Source: a virus. Taken from it: a stretch of DNA of 31,381 bases. Made by a program: the position numbers and the translations under genes. This document shows positions 3,767 to 28,208 of this stretch, piece after piece (position 1 is the stretch's first letter; each line of letters opens with the position of its first letter). The stretch spans positions 1 through 31,381 of the IMG/VR virus record IMGVR_UViG_3300023109_000080. One strand, 5' to 3'. The notes under the pieces were generated by a model. That model was not told where the DNA came from. It did no database searches and worked only from the letters and a program-made list of their open reading frames with translations.

Positions 3767-3830
3767 ATTGCATAATACAACCCATTTGGTACATTATTTG
3801 TATATGAAAAACAAAAATAAAGGAGAGAAC

Positions 3831-4106
3831 ATGAAAAACAGAACACTAAAATTAGTTAAAGGAAATATTATTTACAAAAATAAATATCCTTTAGTTAGAG
3901 TAGAAAAAGTAGAACAAGAATTTGGTAAATTTACTTATATAGTTTTTACCAAAGATGCTTCTTCATCTGAACCTGATAATTTTGAGCCAATGATGAATTA
4001 TCATAAAAAAGGTATTGCATTAGATAGTGCATACAATGTTGTTCAAAATCAAATAATTGATTTGATGAAAGAAGTTAGAGATATTAAAAGAGAGGAGAGA
4101 GCATAA
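3831..4106 (+). CDS. First gene of the rightward block, 91 aa, unknown function
   Basis: I place the start at the ATG at 3831 because AAAGGAGAG lies directly upstream. The frame can be read back to 3768 but only over the promoter region. The protein begins MKNRTLKLVKGNIIYKNKYP and has alternating beta-like segments followed by a C-terminal helix (QIIDLMKEVRDIKREERA). No family is recognised. Its position directly after the divergent promoter implies early, high expression, and such first early genes often encode host-takeover proteins, though nothing in the sequence proves it. Its stop overlaps the ATG of the next small gene (TAATG at 4104-4108). Confidence 0.65.
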   Translation: MKNRTLKLVKGNIIYKNKYPLVRVEKVEQEFGKFTYIVFTKDASSSEPDNFEPMMNYHKKGIALDSAYNVVQNQIIDLMKEVRDIKREERA

Positions 4107-4201
4107 TGAAAAAAATAGCATACTACACTTTAGGTTTTATTTTTTCAGGTTTATGTTTAACTGCAATCATGTTAGGTTGCTTACACGTTTGGAGTATATA
4201 A
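4106..4201 (+). CDS. 31-aa membrane micropeptide
   Basis: ATG 4106 to TAA 4201 encodes MKKIAYYTLGFIFSGLCLTA followed by IMLGCLHVWSI, a basic start plus one hydrophobic segment long enough to cross the membrane. GAGGAGAG stands upstream. It overlaps the neighbours on both sides with TAATG junctions, the main evidence that it is translated. It has no known homologue to me. A membrane-acting early peptide (for example superinfection exclusion or host-membrane effect) is possible but unproven. Confidence 0.55.
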   Translation: MKKIAYYTLGFIFSGLCLTAIMLGCLHVWSI

Positions 4202-4479
4202 TGATTGTTAAAAAACAAAATCGTAAAGACTCAACAGTTCATACTTTTATACAAGGCGATAGATATTTTCAATTTACAGAATACTTTGAAGATTCTTACA
4301 GTTGCCTTTTTGATAAAAAAAGAAACAAACCAACTTTTAAAAAAGGTCATATTCATTTTAGTTATCTACTACCTAAAGATAAATGGATAATGGCTTCGCC
4401 TACTTGGTTTCCTGTTTCTAAAGATATTACAAATCTTAAAGATGCAAAAAGGTTTGTTAAGAATAGGGAGTATCTATAA
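4201..4479 (+). CDS. Small protein of 92 aa, unknown function
   Basis: The ATG at 4201 shares a base with the stop of the membrane peptide, so I prefer it over the earlier in-frame start at 4153, which would overlap that gene. The protein is rich in aromatic and basic residues (DRYFQFTEYFEDSYSCLFDK, then KDKWIMASPTWFPVSK) and probably forms a small beta domain. No domain is recognised. It ends in TAATG with the next gene. Confidence 0.6.
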   Translation: MIVKKQNRKDSTVHTFIQGDRYFQFTEYFEDSYSCLFDKKRNKPTFKKGHIHFSYLLPKDKWIMASPTWFPVSKDITNLKDAKRFVKNREYL

Positions 4480-4769
4480 TGAGAATACCAACTAACTCAA
4501 ACTTTACTAAAGAGATGTCTAAAAGACTACAAAGAATAATTAACCCTCAAACTACATTAGAGGAGTTACAGAATTTACAGGACGAGATGAAAATGATTAA
4601 CCCTGTAGATACTTATTTGCAAAAGCAAGTAAGTCATTTGGAGAAAAACAATGAACCCAAAACAAATGTTCAAGGTTCAAGAACAACTAGACAAGAAAAA
4701 ACAAATGGAGAAAGATTTGTTAAGCAAGTTGTTAAAGAACAAAGAACAGCAGAAGAATTTGGCTTTTAG
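4479..4769 (+). CDS. 96-aa helical protein, unknown function
   Basis: The start shares the TAATG junction with the previous gene. The first half (KRLQRIINPQTTLEELQNLQ) is helical and charged, the second half polar and rich in Thr, Arg, Gln and Glu, ending RTAEEFGF. Codon third positions are A/T-rich along the full length, as in neighbouring genes, supporting this frame even where a second frame overlaps (4651-4806). No family recognised. Confidence 0.6.
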   Translation: MRIPTNSNFTKEMSKRLQRIINPQTTLEELQNLQDEMKMINPVDTYLQKQVSHLEKNNEPKTNVQGSRTTRQEKTNGERFVKQVVKEQRTAEEFGF

Positions 4770-4806
4770 ATTACATTTTCTAAAGTATCATCAGCCAATT
4801 TTATAG
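4651..4806 (+). CDS. Possible overprinted 51-aa ORF
   Basis: In the +1 frame relative to the 96-aa gene, ATG 4651 to TAG 4806 encodes MNPKQMFKVQEQLDKKKQME and continues as a Lys/Gln-rich helix ending KYHQPIL. A ribosome-site-like TTGGAGAAAAA precedes the ATG, and the last 37 bases lie outside the overlapping gene. Third positions here are G/C-richer than neighbours, as expected when the other frame is the one under selection. It may be a real overlapping gene or a chance frame. Confidence 0.35.
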   Translation: MNPKQMFKVQEQLDKKKQMEKDLLSKLLKNKEQQKNLAFRLHFLKYHQPIL

Positions 4807-4825
4807 AGAGGAAAAAAAACAAGAT

Positions 4826-5134
4826 ATGAAAACAATACTTTTACTCATGCTATCTATGACCCTATTACAAGCCTGTAGCTATAAACCTATTATAGATACT
4901 GCTGGAAGATCAGGAACTTTTAAAAATTCTACAGCAGAGAATATAACTAACGATATTATTTTATGTAAGGAACTTGCTAAGAAAAATACTAATCAATTAG
5001 TAGAGTCTTATAAAGTAGTGCATAATTGGTATCTAAGACCAAGTGTTTTATGGCTTATGCCTAAAGCTGAATATACAAACAACAAACTTGTAAGGAACTG
5101 TCTTAAAGGCAGAGGCCACAATGTTATTAATTAA
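4826..5134 (+). CDS. Phage-encoded lipoprotein (102 aa)
   Basis: The N-terminus MKTILLLMLSMTLLQAC is a classic lipoprotein signal: Lys, a hydrophobic run and a lipobox LLQAC with C17 as the lipidated residue. The mature part (YKPIIDTAGRSGTF, then NDIILCKELA and a C-terminal NCLKGRGHNVIN) holds two Cys that might form a disulfide. No Asp follows the lipidated Cys, so export to the outer membrane is possible. Early phage lipoproteins often prevent superinfection by blocking receptors or DNA entry, which is a reasonable but unproven guess. The mature part resembles a conserved small family of marine phages and bacteria with a Y-x-P-x-x-D start. Confidence 0.7.
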   Translation: MKTILLLMLSMTLLQACSYKPIIDTAGRSGTFKNSTAENITNDIILCKELAKKNTNQLVESYKVVHNWYLRPSVLWLMPKAEYTNNKLVRNCLKGRGHNVIN

Positions 5135-5144
5135 AGGAGAAAAC

Positions 5145-5519
5145 ATGAACAAAAACAATACAGTAGAAGAAATCAATATATCAGTTAATAATCTATTAGA
5201 AGAATGGAATATTAGCAGAGAGCATAACGATAAAATTGTTACCCAGATTATAGGGCTACAATTAAGAAAGATAAGATTGGTTAATAAGATGACCCAAACT
5301 AGAGTTGCTAAAGCAATTAGAGTTACATTCCAACAGATTCAAAAATATGAAAAAGGCCAGAATCTTTGTAATCCGATAAATCTATTAGCTTTGTCAGAAT
5401 ACTTTAATGTAACATTTGACTATTTTATTAAACCAATCCATATTAAAGAACTTACATTATTAACTAAAAGGAGAGAGAATGTATATCCATTCAAACAAGA
5501 CTACAACATGGCAAGATAA
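5145..5519 (+). CDS. XRE-family helix-turn-helix regulator (124 aa)
   Basis: Residues about 37-97 form a Cro/CI-type HTH: GLQLRKIRLVNKMTQTRVAK, then RVTFQQIQKYEKGQN and LALSEYFNVTFDYFI, the standard five-helix pattern. I start at the ATG at 5145 with AAAGGAG upstream rather than at 5121, which lies inside the lipoprotein gene. A 30-residue N-terminal extension and a short basic tail flank the domain; there is no peptidase domain as in LexA/CI. Likely it represses the divergent promoters at 3528-3830. With no integrase in view, it need not mean lysogeny. Confidence 0.85.
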   Translation: MNKNNTVEEINISVNNLLEEWNISREHNDKIVTQIIGLQLRKIRLVNKMTQTRVAKAIRVTFQQIQKYEKGQNLCNPINLLALSEYFNVTFDYFIKPIHIKELTLLTKRRENVYPFKQDYNMAR

Positions 5520-5658
5520 AAGAATCAACGCCATGAATAGAACAATAAGTAAAAATAAATTTAAAACAGAACACTTTATTGAAGAATATAATAGGGTGTG
5601 TGTTTCAAATGCTAAAAACAAAAGAGAATATAAAGGAGAGAATAATGGCAATACATAA
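5479..5658 (+). CDS. 59-aa protein, unknown
   Basis: ATG 5479, preceded by AAAAGGAGAGAG, opens a frame to TAA 5658 that reads MYIHSNKTTTWQDKRINAMN and continues as a basic, polar peptide. It overlaps the end of the regulator gene by 41 bases and the start of the nuclease gene by 14. The excellent ribosome site argues that it is translated; no function is seen. Confidence 0.5.
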   Translation: MYIHSNKTTTWQDKRINAMNRTISKNKFKTEHFIEEYNRVCVSNAKNKREYKGENNGNT

Positions 5659-6421
5659 GCTAGAACATGGTCATACGATTGAGTTCAATGAAGAAAAGCA
5701 TGTGTATATTCATAACAACGAATATGTAGTTGGTATGAGTACACTACTTGGAAAGTTAGCAAGTCCAATGTTAGAAAATTGGAAGATTAGCCAACAAGTA
5801 AATGCTATCAAGACAGAAATGGAACGAGAGGGTATTCCAATCGACCAGATACAAAAGATAGTTACTAATGCTAAATCTAATGCAAAGAAGTCAGGAGATA
5901 ATATTTTAAATATAGGCTCTATGGTTCATAAGTTTTGCGAGATGTGGCTTAAAGGAGAAAAATTTACTGACCCAAGCGACCCTGTAATATTAGGTTGCTT
6001 TGAGAAGTTTAAAAGGTTTTGGACAAAACATAAGCTAAAAGTTATTGAGTCCGAAAAGGTTTTATACTCTGAGAGAGGATTTTGTGGCACTTTAGATTTA
6101 ATAGCTAAGGATTCACAGAATAATCTATGGCTCATAGATATAAAAACTTCTAAAGGTTTGTTTTTAAATATGGTTCATCAACTACATGGATATAAGTTGG
6201 CCTATGAAGAACAAACAGGAAAGAAGATCAATAAGATGTATATAGTTCGATTGCCTAAAGATAGTGGCGACTTCGAGGCTAGGCATATCTTATACAAAAA
6301 GGAACACTTAAAAGCATTTCTTGGATTATTAAGTTGTCATAAATCTGAGTTAATGTTCAATGAGTCAGTACGAAAATACAATCAACTAAAAAAAGGAAAA
6401 ACAAATGTACGAAAAAAATAA
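5645..6421 (+). CDS. PD-(D/E)XK nuclease of RecB/Cas4 type (258 aa)
   Basis: The ATG at 5645 has AAAGGAGAG upstream; an in-frame start at 5579 would lack one. The catalytic set is visible in order: H95 (GSMVHKF), E137 (ESEKVL), D151 (GTLDLIAKD), D165-I-K167 (WLIDIKTSK) and the QxxxY motif Q179-Y183 (HQLHGYKLAY). This matches the PD-(D/E)XK exonuclease superfamily related to RecB, AddB and Cas4. It likely resects DNA ends to give single strands for recombination, in partnership with the SSB-like protein encoded next (17-base overlap). A Cas4-type iron-sulfur cluster is not evident, as the Cys pattern is missing. Confidence 0.85.
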   Translation: MAIHKLEHGHTIEFNEEKHVYIHNNEYVVGMSTLLGKLASPMLENWKISQQVNAIKTEMEREGIPIDQIQKIVTNAKSNAKKSGDNILNIGSMVHKFCEMWLKGEKFTDPSDPVILGCFEKFKRFWTKHKLKVIESEKVLYSERGFCGTLDLIAKDSQNNLWLIDIKTSKGLFLNMVHQLHGYKLAYEEQTGKKINKMYIVRLPKDSGDFEARHILYKKEHLKAFLGLLSCHKSELMFNESVRKYNQLKKGKTNVRKK

Positions 6422-6869
6422 ATTCGATAAACCTTTCTGTGGATTACAAATGAGATTATTCCCTACAGGAAATGCAAGTCCAAAGTATGAGTATTCTGGA
6501 GAGGCAAGTAAAGTTAAATTTACTTGTAGCTTAACCAAAAGAAAATATGGTTTATCACAAGTTAATGATTGGTTTAACACACCTGAAGTTCAAGAATATA
6601 CTAAAGCTGGTTATGTTTTAAAGTATATGACTAAAACACAGGAAATGCAAAATCCACCACAATATGCAAAAGGTAATCTTGAGCAGATACTTTGTTTGGT
6701 TATGATTAAACCTTATAAGCCTCAAGCTAATGTAGATGGATTTAAGCCTGTAGGCCAAACTATGCCACAGTATAAACCTCAACCAATGACAGAGGCTCAA
6801 CCATCAGCACCAGATAATGCTATGCCTGTTGAGAAGATGTCAGATATGGACGATGAGATTCCATTTTAA
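6405..6869 (+). CDS. Single-stranded-DNA-binding-like protein (154 aa)
   Basis: The protein ends MSDMDDEIPF, the same acidic-hydrophobic tip as bacterial SSB (DDDIPF), which docks recombination and repair enzymes. It is preceded by a flexible Pro/Gln-rich linker (about residues 108-140), again as in SSB. The N-terminal 105 residues (RLFPTGNASPKYEYSGEASK, then KFTCSLTKRKYGLSQV) are too divergent for me to call an OB fold with certainty. It follows the nuclease gene with a 17-base overlap, giving a resection-plus-coating pair. Without OB recognition, a different protein that merely mimics the SSB tip is possible. Confidence 0.65.
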   Translation: MYEKNKFDKPFCGLQMRLFPTGNASPKYEYSGEASKVKFTCSLTKRKYGLSQVNDWFNTPEVQEYTKAGYVLKYMTKTQEMQNPPQYAKGNLEQILCLVMIKPYKPQANVDGFKPVGQTMPQYKPQPMTEAQPSAPDNAMPVEKMSDMDDEIPF

Positions 6870-6871
6870 TT

Positions 6872-7072
6872 ATGTCTAACGATTTATTTATTAGCGAGAT
6901 TGACAAACTAAAACGTGATCTCGCTTTTAAACAAGAAGAACTACAAGCTATGTATTTAGAAAATAGAAACTTACATAAAAAAATAGATATGTTAGAAAAA
7001 GAAAATCATAGCTTTAAACAACAAATAAAACAATTAGAACAAGAAGCAGAGGAGATGTTATTATACCCATGA
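6872..7072 (+). CDS. 66-aa coiled-coil protein
   Basis: Nearly the whole protein is a heptad-rich helix (DKLKRDLAFKQEELQAMYLE, then ENHSFKQQIKQLEQEAEE), so a coiled-coil dimer is likely. The start has no clear ribosome site, but the ATG is three bases after the SSB-like stop, consistent with coupling. Its last codons overlap the next small gene in an ATGA. The residue run LKRDLAF recurs as LKRDLAL in the gene at 7176-7502. Confidence 0.6.
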   Translation: MSNDLFISEIDKLKRDLAFKQEELQAMYLENRNLHKKIDMLEKENHSFKQQIKQLEQEAEEMLLYP

Positions 7073-7179
7073 TTATATTTGGAAAAAGTAAAAGCGATTG
7101 GAAAGTGTTAGAGTTACATTATAGACGAGAATGGATTTGCTTTGTAGTAGGCTTTGTATTAGGAGTTATATTGATATGA
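7069..7179 (+). CDS. 36-aa single-pass membrane peptide
   Basis: ATG 7069 to TGA 7179 encodes MIIFGKSKSDWKVLELHYRR followed by a 15-residue hydrophobic tail (WICFVVGFVLGVILI) that would anchor it in the membrane with the N-terminus in the cytoplasm. Both ends are ATGA overlaps with neighbours (7069-7072 and 7176-7179). This is strong positional evidence for a real gene. Confidence 0.6.
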   Translation: MIIFGKSKSDWKVLELHYRREWICFVVGFVLGVILI

Positions 7180-7502
7180 GTCTAAGCGATCAATTATATA
7201 AAAAACTAGAAGATGCTTCTAATGATTGGGCTGAATGGCAAAAAAAAACTATAATCTTAGATGAGGGTAGAAAAGCAGTTTTTTCTTCGTGTGTAATTAA
7301 ACATAAGAAGTTAGTGAAAACAATGTCTGAAGCAGAACATGAAGCAAGAATAGACCCTGATTATAAAATGATTGTTGAGCAATATGCAGAAGCTGAAAAA
7401 GAATTAATTAAAGCTAGATATAGATATACCAATATTGATAGGTACGTTTCACTCAAGCAATCAGAGTTAAAACGTGATCTTGCTTTGAATAGTAAAGTTT
7501 AA
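7176..7502 (+). CDS. 108-aa helical protein, unknown function
   Basis: I start at ATG 7176, which overlaps the upstream stop (ATGA) and has TTAGGAG upstream, rather than at 7131 inside the membrane peptide gene. The protein is a long charged helix (LYKKLEDASNDWAEWQKKTI, then VEQYAEAEKELIKARYRYTN) ending LKRDLALNSKV. It resembles conserved hypothetical phage proteins of recombination modules in which Ala/Glu-rich helices carry a 'DPxY' turn (DPDYKM here), but I cannot name a family. The context beside nuclease and SSB-like genes suggests DNA metabolism. Confidence 0.6.
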   Translation: MSLSDQLYKKLEDASNDWAEWQKKTIILDEGRKAVFSSCVIKHKKLVKTMSEAEHEARIDPDYKMIVEQYAEAEKELIKARYRYTNIDRYVSLKQSELKRDLALNSKV

Positions 7503-7634
7503 ATGAATTCTATTAACGATATATTGATTTGCTCCCGATATATGAGTCTAGTAGATAGAGCCATCAGCGAGAGTTGGTGGCTTGTTAAAAGAATTTTAGG
7601 TGTTTTTAATTATGGTTTATATAAACGGCCATAA
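7503..7634 (+). CDS. 43-aa peptide, last rightward gene, doubtful
   Basis: ATG 7503 begins immediately after the previous stop (TAAATG) and runs to TAA 7634. It reads MNSINDILICSRYMSLVDRA and then ISESWWLVKRILGVF with a Trp-rich amphipathic stretch. No ribosome site is seen, so it would depend on coupling. It is the last frame before the terminator. Its reality rests on position only. Confidence 0.35.
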   Translation: MNSINDILICSRYMSLVDRAISESWWLVKRILGVFNYGLYKRP

Positions 7635-14216: not shown

Positions 14217-17102
14217 TTAAAAGCCCTTTGCAATAAAATCAAATGTCCTTGATATATTTGTTCCACTTGAATTTTTAAACAAAACATTAAAGCCATTAAC
14301 TGTCTTATTAGATACTGTAAAGAAATCGCCTGTAGCCATATCTTCGCCTGTAATTCCTACAGCATAATTAACAGATTTGTATGGGTTTGTAAATGTTACA
14401 GTTTTAGTTCCAGCACCAGAAGTTATATCGTTTCCACTAAATATTCTATCAGGCATATCTACTGTAACTGTTACCTCTGAAACTCTAGGTGTTGACGCAC
14501 CATCTGTTGAAGTTAAAACAACTCTAAATTTAAAAAATCTAGCAGTATAATTACCTATTACAAAATTAGAAAATGATGTGTAGGTTGTGTTGTCATCACT
14601 AGTTGATATTTCTAAATGAGCATCACAGTTAGCTGGTGTATCTCCATCAAAGTTTGATTTAGCACTATCAAATAATCCTGTTCTATTATCAAACAAATCA
14701 TCTGGATTATCAGAAGTTTGTGTTAATGAGGCTGTAATTCTACAAGTATGTTTTGCACCTACATCAATAACATCTGCAAATAAATAATTACCACTTGCTA
14801 TAAAGTCAGCATTACTAACACCAGAATCAAATACTCTAGTAGTTTCATCATCAAAATCTCCAGAAGCTGAATCAAATAGTTCTGAAGAATCTAATTCTAT
14901 AGCACCATCAGTTAATAAGGTATCTGTGAATGTACCACTAAAACTAGGGTGTTCTGATTGTGTTGCTACTGCATTATGATTAATAACATCAGTTACATTA
15001 GAAATAATTGATGTTGCATTAGAACTAAAGTTACCAAGTTTATCTACTGCTTTAATAAGATAAGTTCCAGCCCTAGCTGGTACAGATATTGAAGTTGCTG
15101 GTCTTGATACTTTTGTTACTAAATTAACTGAGTTTTGCCAATCAGCACTTCCATCAGTTTCTTTTGCATATCTAATTTGATAATATGCCAAGTCTAAATC
15201 TGTTATGGCTGTCCAAGTTAAATGAGCATTTGTTCCAACAATATTACAAGCAAAATCTTCTACATCACTAGGTGGTGCAATAGCACCTACGATAGTTCTT
15301 TGTGCTGATACATAAGTAGAAGATACCCCTAAGCTATTTACAGCTTTAACCCTTACATCATAGGTAGATTGGTCAATTACATTTAATACTCTATGATTTA
15401 ATCCTGAGCCTTGTGCGTAAATAATAAAATCTGAATCTGTACTTAATTTGTATTCTACTTGGTAGTAATCAACAAAGCTATCAACAGAAGCACCTATAGA
15501 TACATCTAAAGCTACAATTACAGTTCCATCATTATATTGAACTAACTGATCTGATAAAGTTACACTTGCTGGTGGTTGGATAGTAAATGGATTAGGAAGA
15601 TTAGTAGATGGTACTGTCGTTGCTTGTACTTTTGTTGCCCAAGTATAATGTGCAGATTGATATTCAACAAGTGATAACCCTACAGTTAAATCTTGATTAA
15701 AAGTTATTCCAAGAACTCTAAAAGGTTTAGCTGAAAAACCAATGCTTGAATGTGTTATATTAACTATATCTCCAATCGCTAAATCATAACCATTAAAGTC
15801 AACATTAATACCTAAAGATAATGCTTCTCTACTTCTTCTAAGTATAACCTCTGCCATTTCTTCTGCTTGGTATTGTGATGTTAAAGTTGAGAATGTAAAT
15901 CTACCCTCTAGTAAAAAACCACCATCAGCAGTTTTCATAGTTGAGTGTTGATCTGCACTTGGCAATCCTGAATCATCTATCGGTGGAAACTGCACCTCAT
16001 CAACTTGATAGTTACGATCTGGATTAACAAAACCAACTATTACTCTGTTGTATCTATCATTTTTTGTAGGTGTAGATAATGAATAACCACCTATAATATT
16101 ATCTTCTGTTAAAGTGATACTTGCACTTCCTGTTGTTTCTACAATTAAATTATATTTACCAGCATTATAAGGTAAGTAACCTCTACAACCTTTTAAAAAC
16201 TCTCTAACATTATCTATGATTGGTTTAGATGTGTCTAACACAGTATTACAATCAAAAATATTTATATCACTACTACCTGAATATGGTGTTACTTGTGTTT
16301 CACAAACTTGTGAGGCATCATAAAAAGATTGTAAATCTAATTCACTAACTGCTAATCCTTTTCCATATCTTGTGTTTGTTAAATAATCTAATAAGCACCA
16401 TGATGGATTAACTTGATAACTAGCTGATTGTTCTACTAAACTTGAATTATAAGTTTTAACTTTTTTACCCTGTATTTTAGCTTGTACTCTTGGTATTCCA
16501 CCAAATGCGTTTTGATTCCATTTAAACCTTAATGCTAAATAACATAGACCAGATAATTTATGATTGCTTCCCCATGATGATAATGTTGAAAGTAAAGAAC
16601 TTGCAGATTGTCCATCAGTTCCAAAATGAGGCTCTACTCTAATTAGACTTTCTGCACTTGAACCCTCTACATTTGGGTCAGCTTTATAAAAATTACTATC
16701 TGAATTATTTACTTCTACTTCTGTTCCATCTGATAATGTACTTGCCCAAGTAACAACTTTTTCATCTACTCTTATTTCTTCTATATCATTTATCTCTCCC
16801 TCTGACATAACGATAGCCATATATAAATATGTGTTATCAGTTCCTGAAGTTTCCATAAACACCCTAGTTCCCCCAACAAGTCTTTCTCCATAAATTACAG
16901 CAATATTAGAGTCATTAGATTGTTTATTAAGTAAAATACCTTTTTCAAAATCATCAAATTCGTTAGTTCCAAAATCAGGAATCTCAGGTGGTTTTGGTCT
17001 TAATGCCCAACTTAAAAATAATGAAACCCCTAATGAAACTAAAGGGTTTCCAGCCATAAATAAACTTGCTATTTTTGTAACAGCACCTACTACTGCACCC
17101 AT
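14217..17102 (-). CDS. Tail-tip host-specificity protein, gpJ-like (961 aa)
   Basis: The N-terminal hydrophobic region (SLGVSLFLSWALRPKPPEIP), the LDYLTNTRYGKGLAVSELDL segment and the GDIVNITHSSIGFSAKPFRV segment are characteristic of lambda gpJ-type tail-tip hubs. Two fibronectin type III domains follow at about 490-690. The C-terminal quarter has repeated Asp-rich turns (ELFDSASGDFDDET and LFDNRTGLFDSAKSNFDGDT), possibly Ca-binding. It would form the central tip that touches the receptor and opens the envelope. I start at ATG 17102 (AAAGGA upstream) over the TTG at 17108. The start overlaps the HlyC-like gene's end. Confidence 0.85.
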   Translation of the reverse strand: MGAVVGAVTKIASLFMAGNPLVSLGVSLFLSWALRPKPPEIPDFGTNEFDDFEKGILLNKQSNDSNIAVIYGERLVGGTRVFMETSGTDNTYLYMAIVMSEGEINDIEEIRVDEKVVTWASTLSDGTEVEVNNSDSNFYKADPNVEGSSAESLIRVEPHFGTDGQSASSLLSTLSSWGSNHKLSGLCYLALRFKWNQNAFGGIPRVQAKIQGKKVKTYNSSLVEQSASYQVNPSWCLLDYLTNTRYGKGLAVSELDLQSFYDASQVCETQVTPYSGSSDINIFDCNTVLDTSKPIIDNVREFLKGCRGYLPYNAGKYNLIVETTGSASITLTEDNIIGGYSLSTPTKNDRYNRVIVGFVNPDRNYQVDEVQFPPIDDSGLPSADQHSTMKTADGGFLLEGRFTFSTLTSQYQAEEMAEVILRRSREALSLGINVDFNGYDLAIGDIVNITHSSIGFSAKPFRVLGITFNQDLTVGLSLVEYQSAHYTWATKVQATTVPSTNLPNPFTIQPPASVTLSDQLVQYNDGTVIVALDVSIGASVDSFVDYYQVEYKLSTDSDFIIYAQGSGLNHRVLNVIDQSTYDVRVKAVNSLGVSSTYVSAQRTIVGAIAPPSDVEDFACNIVGTNAHLTWTAITDLDLAYYQIRYAKETDGSADWQNSVNLVTKVSRPATSISVPARAGTYLIKAVDKLGNFSSNATSIISNVTDVINHNAVATQSEHPSFSGTFTDTLLTDGAIELDSSELFDSASGDFDDETTRVFDSGVSNADFIASGNYLFADVIDVGAKHTCRITASLTQTSDNPDDLFDNRTGLFDSAKSNFDGDTPANCDAHLEISTSDDNTTYTSFSNFVIGNYTARFFKFRVVLTSTDGASTPRVSEVTVTVDMPDRIFSGNDITSGAGTKTVTFTNPYKSVNYAVGITGEDMATGDFFTVSNKTVNGFNVLFKNSSGTNISRTFDFIAKGF

Positions 17103-17497
17103 AACCAACTATCCTTTGTTTTTACTGACATAATTTTCTTTACTTTGTTATTATTATTTAATCTTATCCATTTGAATTTTTTATTTGCACCATGAATTTT
17201 TGTTGCATTGTTTTTCAACCAACTCATAATTTGTCTAATGTTTTTTGTAGCTATAAAATCAATATGCAACATTATATCTCCACAATTCCAATTATGGATT
17301 ATTCCTGTTTTTAAAAAATGTTGTTCAGCTTCTTGATTAACATAAGCCCAATTACAAAAACCATATACACCATTATCTTTAAATAATTTATATTGATTAT
17401 AGTCGATAGATTGTTTGAGATGATAATATAATTCTAAATCAGTATTATCAGCATATCTTTTAAATGTTTTGTAGAATTTTATAATATCGTTTATCAT
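17090..17497 (-). CDS. HlyC-like (RTX toxin-activating) lysine acyltransferase-type protein (135 aa)
   Basis: Residues 34-85 resemble HlyC: NQYKLF, then YGFCNWAYVNQEAEQHFLKT, NWNCGDIMLHIDFIAT. In HlyC the equivalents are NQYVLL, YCSWANLSLENEIKYL and SGDRKWFIDWIAPFG. The catalytic Asp corresponds to D80. The catalytic His of HlyC (His23) would fall near Y15, so it seems absent or displaced (H26 is the nearest His). HlyC adds fatty acids to lysines of toxins. In tail-tip operons of alphaproteobacterial phages this slot usually holds an NlpC/P60 peptidase. It overlaps both neighbours by ATGA/short stretches. A GNAT-like protein or a non-catalytic homologue are alternatives. Confidence 0.5.
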   Translation of the reverse strand: MINDIIKFYKTFKRYADNTDLELYYHLKQSIDYNQYKLFKDNGVYGFCNWAYVNQEAEQHFLKTGIIHNWNCGDIMLHIDFIATKNIRQIMSWLKNNATKIHGANKKFKWIRLNNNNKVKKIMSVKTKDSWLWVQ

Positions 17498-25305: not shown

Positions 25306-26295
25306 TTATATTATTAGTTCGCCTTTGCTGTCATACCAATCAGGATTGACATAAGACCATTGATGACGACAATTATAACCACCTCGAACTATTAAAGGGT
25401 TGCCAGATTTTTTACCTGACCAACTTCTACTTGTCCAAAGTGATCTGACTTCATCAACTGTGAAAAGTCCACTTTTCCTCTTATCATATACACCAGATAT
25501 TAAATTTCTGCAAATATCCCTAGTGGTAGGTATTACATCTCCATAATATTTAACAAAAGTTAAACCAGCATCTTGGGATTTATTAAAGTTAAGGGTTGCA
25601 TCAAAATCTCTTAATGAGTCGTTTAGTATTTGACCAGCATATCTTTTCATATTTTCTCCAGCCCTATCTCTTGCAAACTTAGATTGTAGAGTTTGGATAG
25701 ACTTATCAACTAGTGCTTGTTTTGATTTATCAAACTTATTCTTATTTATATAATTAATTAATCTCTGTATTTCAGGGTCATCTGAACTCGCATAAATACC
25801 ATTTATTGTTTGTCTAAGTTCCTTTTCTAATACTGCAAACTCGCTACCAACTAATGTATTCTGATAAACCTTTTCTGATAGTCGTCTTGTAAATGTATTA
25901 GATACATCTTTAAATTGCGTAAAGTATTGTTGCTTTAGATTTTTAACTAATGCTAGATCGCCTTTTGTAAGTTCTTGAAACTCTACAGGAATATTACCAA
26001 TTCTTTTAAATGCTTTTTCAATTCGTTTAGCTTGTTTATTAAAACCCTCTCTAACAACTGTATCTGACCATTTAAGATATTCTCTTTCCAAGATAGCTTT
26101 TATTTGTGGCCTTATAGCAATAGCTGATTGTAGTTCTATTAACTTGCCATCTGTTAAAGGAAGTCCATTAGCAAGAGATACTACTTCTCGTTCTATTCTA
26201 TCTAATGTTGTGATTAATGATTTGTAATATTCAGCTTCTGCAAGTTCTATTTGCTTGATTCTATAAAATGTTGCGTCTTTTACTATATCTGCCAT
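25306..26295 (-). CDS. MuF-like minor head protein (329 aa)
   Basis: The C-terminal part SWSGKKSGNPLIVRGGYNCR with RHQWSYVNPDWYD has the Cys/His/Trp pattern of the phage Mu gpF family, following a long helical N-terminal part (about 1-240). The DICRNLISGVYDKRKSG segment is part of this domain. MuF proteins are injected or internal minor head components beside the portal. Here the 'HR-x-W' end is intact, and no extra toxin domain is attached. It lies between the isolated rightward gene and the scaffold gene. Confidence 0.8.
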   Translation of the reverse strand: MADIVKDATFYRIKQIELAEAEYYKSLITTLDRIEREVVSLANGLPLTDGKLIELQSAIAIRPQIKAILEREYLKWSDTVVREGFNKQAKRIEKAFKRIGNIPVEFQELTKGDLALVKNLKQQYFTQFKDVSNTFTRRLSEKVYQNTLVGSEFAVLEKELRQTINGIYASSDDPEIQRLINYINKNKFDKSKQALVDKSIQTLQSKFARDRAGENMKRYAGQILNDSLRDFDATLNFNKSQDAGLTFVKYYGDVIPTTRDICRNLISGVYDKRKSGLFTVDEVRSLWTSRSWSGKKSGNPLIVRGGYNCRHQWSYVNPDWYDSKGELII

Positions 26296-26348
26296 TTGTT
26301 CTAATTTTGTTCTGTCAAAAATCTAGTGTTTGCTAGGTTATATTTTAT

Positions 26349-26375
26349 TTGACCTTTATATCAATATTTTATAAA
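26349..26375 (+). promoter_or_regulatory. Candidate promoter of the isolated rightward gene
   Basis: TTGACC (26349-26354) and TATAAA (26370-26375), 15 bases apart, sit 30 bases upstream of the ATG at 26406. The gap between MuF-like gene (start 26295) and this gene is 110 bases and very AT-rich, and the gene has no other possible source of a rightward transcript. Spacer is shorter than ideal. Confidence 0.5.
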
Positions 26376-26405
26376 TTTTATATATAAATAAACAAAGGAG
26401 AGAAT

Positions 26406-26750
26406 ATGAATATAATATCAATGCACAAAAATGGAATAGATGCTTCTAAAAAAGCTGTTATAAAATTTTTAGAAGATTGGAATAAAAACACGGGTGGTAA
26501 TGAATATGGAGAACCAATGTATTGTGGTTTTGCTGGTGTTGTTATTTATGATGTAAGATCAAATTCTAAAATTGGAAAACAATTACAAGAAATTGGTTTC
26601 AGAAAACACTATCCAAAAGGCCTTTATCTTAATAATCCATCTAACCATCATGGTCAATCTATGGATTGTAAAGAGGAGGGTGCATCTGCTTATGCTAAAA
26701 TTTTTAGAGATGCTGGTATAAAAGCCTATATGACTTCAAGACCTGATTAA
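26406..26750 (+). CDS. Isolated rightward gene inside the structural operon (114 aa)
   Basis: AAAGGAGAG precedes ATG 26406. The protein is MNIISMHKNGIDASKKAVIK, then KFLEDWNKNTGGNEYGEPMY, CGFAGVVIYDVRSN, GFRKHYPKGLYLNNPSN, HGQSMDCKEEGASAYAKIFR and AYMTSRPD. From memory this matches a conserved phage protein with the pattern CGFAW...GFRK.Y..GL.LWNPS...Q..D.K..GA.A...SR.D and no known function. It runs against the flow of the structural genes, with its own promoter and terminator, like a moron. No neighbour explains it. It may be an accessory for host manipulation. Confidence 0.75.
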   Translation: MNIISMHKNGIDASKKAVIKFLEDWNKNTGGNEYGEPMYCGFAGVVIYDVRSNSKIGKQLQEIGFRKHYPKGLYLNNPSNHHGQSMDCKEEGASAYAKIFRDAGIKAYMTSRPD

Positions 26751-26771
26751 TAATTAATTAACTAATGAAAG

Positions 26772-26797
26772 AGGCGATCTATATGGTCGCCTTTTTT
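26772..26797 (+). terminator. Terminator of the isolated rightward gene
   Basis: AGGCGA (26772-26777) pairs with TCGCCT (26787-26792) with a 9-base loop and is followed by a run of T at 26792-26797. It is a good rho-independent terminator for the rightward transcript. The portal gene's stop codon (26796-26798) lies in the T-run. In the leftward direction the U-tract is absent, so structural transcription may pass. Confidence 0.85.
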
Positions 26798-28208
26798 ATA
26801 TCTGCTCTTGTTCTACTTCTTGATCTTCTTGTGCTGGTTCGTCTTGTGTGAACTGACCTACTTCTGCTTGTGCATCTATCTCGTCAAAGATTTCGTTTAG
26901 TTTTGTATCATCATCAATAACTGCTCTAGCAATTTCTTTATCAACTTCTTTTGCAAATGTTGGAGAACCAATATCTAATGATTTAGCTTGTTGGAAGTAC
27001 ATAAGATCACTTGCGTAATCTCTAATATTAAATGAATCAGGATAGTTAATTTCTCCATCGAATGTAGCATTTTGAAATAAAGCATATAATCTAAATAGTT
27101 GTTCTTCTGCTATTTGTAAGTTGTCAGCTTTCTCTGATAGTCTAGCATTTAATAATTCAAATTCTGTTTGTAGTGCAACACCAGATGTTATTCCTGTCTT
27201 TTGAGTTCTAACAGCACCTGTATGTGCAATTCTATTTATAGAATCTACTTTGCTATTTATAGACTCCATAATAGCTTGTAAGTTCTGGCCAGATGGTTGA
27301 AGTAAATATGGTTTTAAGTTTGGCTCTAATTCGTCAGGCATTTCTATTACTGCACCAGCACCAGCACTTGCATTTACACTTGGAGTTTTAACTAATGATG
27401 GGTGGTTAGTTAATCTGATTAGTTGTTCCATTTCAGAGTATTCATTGTAAATAGATTTTTGTAGATCAGCTATGTCAGTTAAATCTGATTGACCAATTCC
27501 TCTCTTGTGAGATTTAGCATTGTATAAAATAACTGCTGGTATTTTACCAATCATATTTGGAACACTATCTATTAATCTAGGCTCATCTCTTTCTTGCATG
27601 TAGATAGTATCAATTTTATCAGGATACCAAATTCTCATGTATGTACCACCATTTCTATCTACTTCTTCTCTAACTTTTAAATAGTTTAATTCGTACTTAC
27701 CATTTACTTGTCTTTCAAAGTTCCAATCTAAAACATTCTCAGGAGTTACGATTGATAAGTATGGTCTAATATCTTGATCTAATTCTTCTGCTCTAGTGTT
27801 TGTAGTTACATTAGGTTTATCTAACATCATAAAACAATGACCATAAATAGACGCATAGTTTTGTGCTTGTTTAATTACAGAGTTTAAATTGTTACCCTCA
27901 AGATCAGCATCTTTTAAGAATGATTCTAAACTAGGTTCATCTTGCATAGAACCAAAATCTCTACTTGGTCTAACTCTAAATAAGAATGATGAATAAATTT
28001 GAATAATATTTTTACAATGGTTATCACAAGGAGTGTTTGCAAGTCTTTGATTGAACTCGTTATCTAATTCTAAATTATATCTGTTTAAGTATTGGCCTAT
28101 CATGTAATCATAGCCACCATTGTATGATCTAATATAATACTCCCAATTATTAACTGTTTCAGAATAGTCTTTGTGTGTATCTAATGCTTGATCTCTAGTG
28201 TATGCCAT
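26796..28208 (-). CDS. Portal protein (470 aa)
   Basis: It forms the dodecameric DNA gate of the head. Size (470 aa) and its location after the large terminase (3-base gap) are standard. The sequence has RPSRDFGSMQDEPSLESFLK and the family-like AQNYASIYGHCFMMLD, NYLKVREEVDRNGGTYMRIW and GVALQTEFELLNARLSEKAD segments of phage portals, with an acidic Glu/Gln-rich C-terminus. It is a classical siphophage portal, not a T4-type. A precise subfamily cannot be told by eye. Confidence 0.85.
   Translation of the reverse strand: MAYTRDQALDTHKDYSETVNNWEYYIRSYNGGYDYMIGQYLNRYNLELDNEFNQRLANTPCDNHCKNIIQIYSSFLFRVRPSRDFGSMQDEPSLESFLKDADLEGNNLNSVIKQAQNYASIYGHCFMMLDKPNVTTNTRAEELDQDIRPYLSIVTPENVLDWNFERQVNGKYELNYLKVREEVDRNGGTYMRIWYPDKIDTIYMQERDEPRLIDSVPNMIGKIPAVILYNAKSHKRGIGQSDLTDIADLQKSIYNEYSEMEQLIRLTNHPSLVKTPSVNASAGAGAVIEMPDELEPNLKPYLLQPSGQNLQAIMESINSKVDSINRIAHTGAVRTQKTGITSGVALQTEFELLNARLSEKADNLQIAEEQLFRLYALFQNATFDGEINYPDSFNIRDYASDLMYFQQAKSLDIGSPTFAKEVDKEIARAVIDDDTKLNEIFDEIDAQAEVGQFTQDEPAQEDQEVEQEQI

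Follow-up and report, generated by a model that had tools for sequence, protein, structure and literature searches.

A probable antisense slot for exchangeable small genes beside the portal gene of pelagiphages

The portal junction and its cargo gene

We analysed a viral record of 31,381 bases over its whole length (hereafter, the window). Most of its genes match those of the cultured Pelagibacter phage HTVC026P and keep their order, with protein identities of 82% for the portal, 80% for TerL and 73% for the capsid, and by this gene content the window is a pelagiphage, kin of HTVC026P and HTVC111P. Between the portal gene and the next late gene, both on the minus strand, a single gene runs rightward, just as the preliminary description of this DNA had stated. 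We refer to the stretch between the two late genes as the slot, to its contents as a cassette, and to the gene inside as the cargo. The features of the locus, and two others in the window that bear on it, are as follows.

25306–26295, minus strand: late gene downstream of the portal gene, matching part of HTVC026P gp30 at 71% identity
26296–26797, plus strand: whole insert of the putative slot, from the start codon of the downstream late gene to the portal stop; 3–4 bp in empty relatives
26296–26313, plus strand: direct-repeat element TTGTTCTAATTTTGTTCT, adjoining the start codon of the downstream late gene; constant flank in the alignment of 41 cassettes
26346–26377, plus strand: predicted slot promoter element, with −35 TTGACC (26349–26354), −10 TAAATT (26372–26377) and a 17-bp spacer containing the conserved TTTATATCAAT
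26394–26402, plus strand: Shine-Dalgarno sequence AAAGGAGAG, read directly; its AAGGAG core also precedes most cargo genes
26406–26750, plus strand: cargo gene, ATG start, 114 aa (P0001), PHROG 22149, family F7
26773–26797, plus strand: predicted one-way intrinsic terminator GGCGATC-TATAT-GGTCGCC-TTTTTT, with a 7-bp stem, a 5-nt loop and six T
26796–28208, minus strand: portal gene, PHROG 145 (E 1.7e-62), Pfam SPP1_portal; stop codon at 26796–26798
3768–7634, plus strand: early-type operon, which in relatives is the other location of slot genes; no copy of the cargo gene is present in it here
5579–6421, plus strand: phage exonuclease, PHROG 298 (E 2.2e-40), with a possible recombination function in cassette exchange

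The downstream late gene had been labelled 'MuF-like', a label that no Pfam or PHROG profile supports. Its product has 329 aa in the window versus ~609 aa in HTVC026P and in the relative G001 (L098:11402–13228 compared), and the extra part of the longer protein is absent from the window protein. Elsewhere in the window, the counterpart of HTVC026P gp47 (17090–17497; annotated as a toxin-activating lysine-acyltransferase) is found among tail genes in this phage group, and a leftward operon contains a DNA methyltransferase gene (716–1270, PHROG 359) adjoining a metalloprotease-like gene (1267–1572, PHROG 87).

Judged by its conservation, the ORF at 26406–26750 is a real gene. Close copies occur in 11 other records (ten IMG/VR contigs and HTVC026P) with 81–89% amino acid identity over all 114 residues and no indels, and a dN/dS of 0.11–0.16 indicates purifying selection. 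A search for the family in other phages, as the preliminary description had suggested, thus yields 12 records with close copies when the window is counted, each carrying one gene copy, and distant relatives in hundreds (276 IMG/VR stretches encode one with the alignment as query). All 53 aligned relatives match PHROG 22149 (E 4.6e-12 for P0001), a family that includes nothing about the slot; all of them end in S-R-x-D-stop and have ten invariant alignment columns, C40-G-F among them. The conserved residues of P0001 include C40, P78, Q84, E90, R112 and D114. The GC content of the gene (0.307) is close to that of the portal gene (0.318) and the window (0.313), and its base composition is therefore not foreign.

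The AlphaFold model of P0001 has an alpha-beta-alpha-beta-alpha-beta fold with a pLDDT of 94.8. Searches of P0001 for a function in Pfam, NCBIfam, PDB sequences and PADLOC returned no match, Foldseek of the model against the PDB gave no significant match (best E 0.3), and Rfam gave no family match. Structure matches in a viral library are uncharacterised phage proteins. A likeness to the EBNA1 and LANA DNA-binding domains (VIA; Z 4–5, at best 5.2 for EBNA1) was rejected as too weak, being within the tool's stated background. The cargo families as a whole have no PADLOC match and no convincing Pfam match.

Signals flanking the cargo

The cargo gene is preceded by a candidate promoter, TTGACC-N17-TAAATT, at 26349–26377. 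The preliminary description had proposed this promoter, and its conservation supports it, but a consensus scan of the AT-rich stretch taken alone does no better than chance (4 found versus 7.5 expected from shuffles), and the −10 hexamer of the window is a weak match. The promoter is credible because of its conserved position: of the 53 cassettes, with their unrelated cargo, 41 have TTTGAYNKTTATATCAA and then TATATATAAA in the same place. Within the window, the pattern occurs once, versus 0 expected. In these 41 cassettes, designated type A, the upstream flank reads TTTGTTCTAATTnTGTTCT ... TTATTTGACCTTTATATCAAT.TTT.ATA..TTTATATATAAA and is followed by the Shine-Dalgarno sequence; of the other cassettes, five use a different promoter, whose −10 is extended (TGnTATAMT), and the remaining seven differ again. 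We predict that the slot promoter belongs to the host's sigma-70 class.

Seven matches to the promoter pattern lie outside the slot, most of them resembling chance matches in other sequence. L181, which is part of a 65-kb contig of a larger, different phage, has TTGACATTTATATCAATTTATAATATAAT before a Shine-Dalgarno sequence and ATG at 556 on its minus strand. This form is a perfect TTGACA-N17-TATAAT, in register with the slot promoter, and it looks like a real promoter. A further observation concerns an inverted repeat, TTGA-N8-TCAA, inside the promoter (26349–26364, with cognates in type A cassettes); on the minus strand of the window it reads TTGATA-N16-TATAAC, possibly a divergent promoter for the downstream late genes or an operator.

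The minus-strand sequence leads to an alternative reading in which the cassette acts as a cis element, supplying the late operon with a further promoter that points leftward, back to back with that of the cargo, and the cargo itself is incidental. Such a role would fit the maintenance of the inverted repeat in type A flanks and a minus-strand match of 10 of 12 positions in the window, as read by eye. It fits poorly with the junctions found through the portal protein only, about two thirds of which are empty and so without the element, and with types B and C and L134, which have other upstream sequences. In addition, the leftward −10 varies, and the cargo frames are intact, the one tested being under purifying selection. 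We therefore consider the cis-element reading unlikely.

Downstream of the cargo, the strong terminator announced by the preliminary description is borne out by prediction, with a sense-strand fold of −20.5 kcal/mol (z = −7.35). It is the only hairpin of at least 7 pairs with a T-run that our scan of the 31-kb window found; a stock terminator scan missed it, probably because the stem is extended into the A-tract and T-run. The portal stop codon indeed lies inside the T-run, and it does so in nearly all filled relatives. The sequence GGCGATC-loop-GGTCGCC-TTTTTTA recurs in all but a few of the 53 cassettes. Stem pair 4 has undergone compensatory changes (C-G in L134 and HTVC202P, A-U in L162, G-C elsewhere), which lend modest support, as they comprise 8 sequences and one varying pair.

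The hairpin is predicted to act in one direction. Specifically, the stem energy is −10.8 kcal/mol on the sense strand versus −6.1 kcal/mol on the antisense strand, because pair 6, always U-G, becomes a C-A mismatch on the opposite strand, and the antisense strand has no consistent T-run. The hairpin by itself does not mark the slot, because it also matches 12 viral contigs that form one separate group (L240, L242, L244, L246, L250, L254, L255, L257, L258, L259, L261 and L265). In these 12 contigs, a conserved TTTCTACTAAATA follows the terminator.

Occupancy of the slot and exchange of its contents

A search with the portal protein only fetched 80 loci, of which 76 have readable junctions; in this less biased set, 24 junctions are filled and 52 are empty (3–4 bp). 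Addition of loci from searches with the promoter and terminator patterns brought the collection to 82 distinct junctions with a bimodal size distribution: 29 measure 3–4 bp, 53 measure 278–931 bp, and none falls in between. Every one of the 53 filled junctions has an antisense ORF with a Shine-Dalgarno sequence, and none has a sense ORF of at least 60 aa with one; the orientation is partly inherited with the common flanks, and the 53 cases are not independent events. The cassettes carry one, occasionally two, small genes. In total, their ORFs make up ~25 unrelated families between unchanged flanks, namely 23 families, one longer family (L113, L115, L127 and L185) and HTVC111P gp32. Flank uniformity is partly selected among the loci added after the portal search, which were mostly fetched by promoter or terminator pattern; the portal-only set has the same cassette design, though several of its members lack the type A promoter.

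The longer family, of ~200 aa, has the type A promoter and no terminator; it meets the portal gene tail to tail, with its stop codon overlapping the portal stop region. Its member in L113 matches PHROG 2319 and others without known function.

The cargo genes that we traced have a second home. The F7 gene lies antisense beside the portal gene in the window, G001 and G002, and in the early operon, co-directional with it, in HTVC026P and G003–G010. In HTVC026P, G007 and G010, where both sites are readable, the gene is early and the portal junction is empty (3–4 bp). Most F7 relatives (44 loci) are co-directional with their called neighbours, but the gene of the window, G001 and G002 stands between opposed genes; the loci thus do not show the constant co-directionality that the preliminary description had named as refuting its reading. 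For three more families, loci were classified by marker genes nearby, giving slot versus early counts of 10 versus 7 for F1, 8 versus 6 for F2 and 1 versus 5 for F25 (plus HTVC111P itself, in the slot), with nine F1 and two F2 loci left unclassified for lack of a usable marker. All four traced cargo families (F7, F1, F2 and F25) thus also occur in early operons. A search of a phage-record collection with the F1 and F2 cargo gave no match.

In the early loci of F1, F2 and F25 the gene is on the early-gene strand and the slot promoter and terminator are found in none, while the slot loci have both signals in all but two distant F1 members; one F2 locus is on the strand opposite an early marker. 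Because relatives in early operons lack them, the promoter and the terminator are features of the slot rather than of the gene, and the earlier view of these signals as the gene's own does not stand. Furthermore, HTVC111P gp32 has 81% identity to the early gene that lies immediately upstream of F7 in G007, and therefore two adjoining early genes of one phage each occur alone in the slot of another.

Slot contents vary among near-identical backbones, and distant backbones have flanks in common. Among pairs whose portal tails share at least 97% DNA identity, the slot content differs in 17 of 21; in particular, L139 and L141 have portal tails 99.4% identical and unrelated cargo (F16 versus F4). 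Conversely, the promoter flank of the window is 98.9% identical to that of L193, yet the portal proteins share 74% identity and the cargo is different. The dS of the F7 gene is 0.38 between the window and G001, versus 0.76–0.94 between the window and early-operon copies, and the flanks of the window and G001 belong to two subtypes. The lower dS between slot copies is consistent with slot-to-slot exchange.

Taken together, it is highly probable that HTVC026P/HTVC111P-type pelagiphages have a fixed antisense slot at the junction of the portal gene and the next gene, holding one exchangeable early or accessory gene, and that the gene at 26406–26750 is its current occupant and not a one-off insertion. 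An earlier account of a slot at the portal junction was not found in the open-licence literature.

A moron is an extra gene between genes that adjoin in relatives; it has its own promoter and terminator, and its transcription is generally regarded as independent of the late genes. Morons were reportedly described in lambdoid and other phages by Juhala, Hendrix and colleagues. The slot insert is like a moron in that the genes around it are adjacent in relatives (3–4 bp in 52 of 76 junctions) and in having its own promoter and terminator, as judged from sequence, conservation and folding. It differs in that the slot is fixed, with constant flanks and ~25 exchangeable cargoes that are always antisense, and in that the cargo has a base composition that is not foreign (GC 0.307 versus 0.318 for the portal gene), an early-operon home, and a phage background in which we noticed no integrase among the examined genes. 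This base composition and the lack of an integrase among those genes leave a prophage-type role as a moron without support. An ordinary moron, that is, a single independent insertion of one gene with promoter and terminator travelling along, would explain why the junction has no gene in many relatives and why the insert has its own signals; we find it quite improbable in the face of ~25 different genes at the same junction with the same flanks, relatives elsewhere without these signals, and the base composition. Of the preliminary 'moron-like' reading, the tight antisense insertion, the conserved promoter, the one-way terminator and the site empty in close relatives hold, but the one-off insertion does not. 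Its expectations that the cargo would be transcribed independently and that late readthrough would produce antisense RNA over it are reasonable inferences.

The strictly antisense placement, together with the portal stop within the T-run, could also point to a regulatory device, in which the rightward transcript would control expression of the portal or capsid gene, with the peptide playing a secondary part. The transcript, however, would end at the portal stop codon, given the predicted terminator, and would hardly overlap the portal gene; moreover, cargo RNAs of different families have no common sequence, and coding selection is strong. We regard such a device as very unlikely. Finally, although most loci are IMG/VR fragments, there is next to no chance that assembly chimeras in metagenomic contigs produce the apparent cargo diversity, because the complete cultured genomes HTVC111P (gp32) and HTVC202P (gp29) carry antisense cassettes, with HTVC112P and HTVC026P empty, the gap sizes are strictly bimodal, and the HTVC202P cargo family recurs in L134 at 89% identity.

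Proposed working and related loci

The fixed antisense slot could work as follows. Host RNA polymerase would transcribe the cargo from the slot promoter, and with a sigma-70-type promoter the cargo would be made early, in the same phase as the early-operon genes it replaces. The terminator would stop the cargo transcript before the portal gene. Being weak on the other strand, such a one-way hairpin would let late transcription run on to scaffold and capsid, and late readthrough may switch the cargo off. The strict antisense rule would be explained because a cassette with a strong terminator would hardly be tolerable in the sense direction. Homologous recombination through the constant flanks and the neighbouring portal and late-gene sequence would swap the cargo, possibly aided by the PHROG 298 exonuclease of the phage.

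We infer that P0001 most likely serves as a small accessory protein of the early phase, in host takeover or counter-defence, because of the early-operon home, wide spread and fast exchange of its gene. More tentatively, the slot may be a gene-exchange port, in which the flanks are both recombination handles and expression signals, the antisense orientation is selected for early expression and late shut-off, and the cargo pool, moving between the slot and early operons, is a reservoir of genes for takeover and counter-defence. We hold this fuller picture to be possible, somewhat short of an even chance.

Similar features are found in other phage loci. Small, unrelated, fast-exchanged genes behind a conserved regulatory sequence at one locus are characteristic of anti-CRISPR and similar variable phage loci, and the slot shares this arrangement. 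It differs from them in its position in the late operon, in a cargo without match to known defence-related models (PADLOC), and in that we saw no conserved partner gene of the aca-regulator kind. The PeSLs (promoter-early stem-loops) of T4-type phages, said to go back to Arbiol 2010 and Comeau 2014, are another point of comparison. Two papers report that these conserved promoter/stem-loop sequences mediate gene shuffling between related phages (PMC4503421, PMC3950731), and one of them reports that PeSLs are dense where shuffling is intense (PMC4503421). The slot too combines a conserved promoter and a stem-loop with shuffled small genes; unlike in PeSLs, promoter and terminator flank the cargo on opposite sides, there is one slot per genome, lying antisense within the late structural operon, and the window has one promoter pattern and one such hairpin (at least 7 pairs). 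The slot thus appears to be a new variant among phage gene-shuffling loci, which resembles a moron in its working, and to some degree a T4 PeSL, and lacks a typical feature of each.

SAR11, the hosts of pelagiphages, are the most abundant marine bacteria, and most pelagiphage accessory genes are of unknown function. A fixed slot that is easily recognised makes it simple to list exchangeable genes that probably act early, and it offers a natural comparison of empty with filled junctions and of one backbone with different cargo. The slot also points to a way in which a phage may tolerate a gene with a strong terminator in its late operon, namely in antisense orientation only and with a terminator that acts in one direction.
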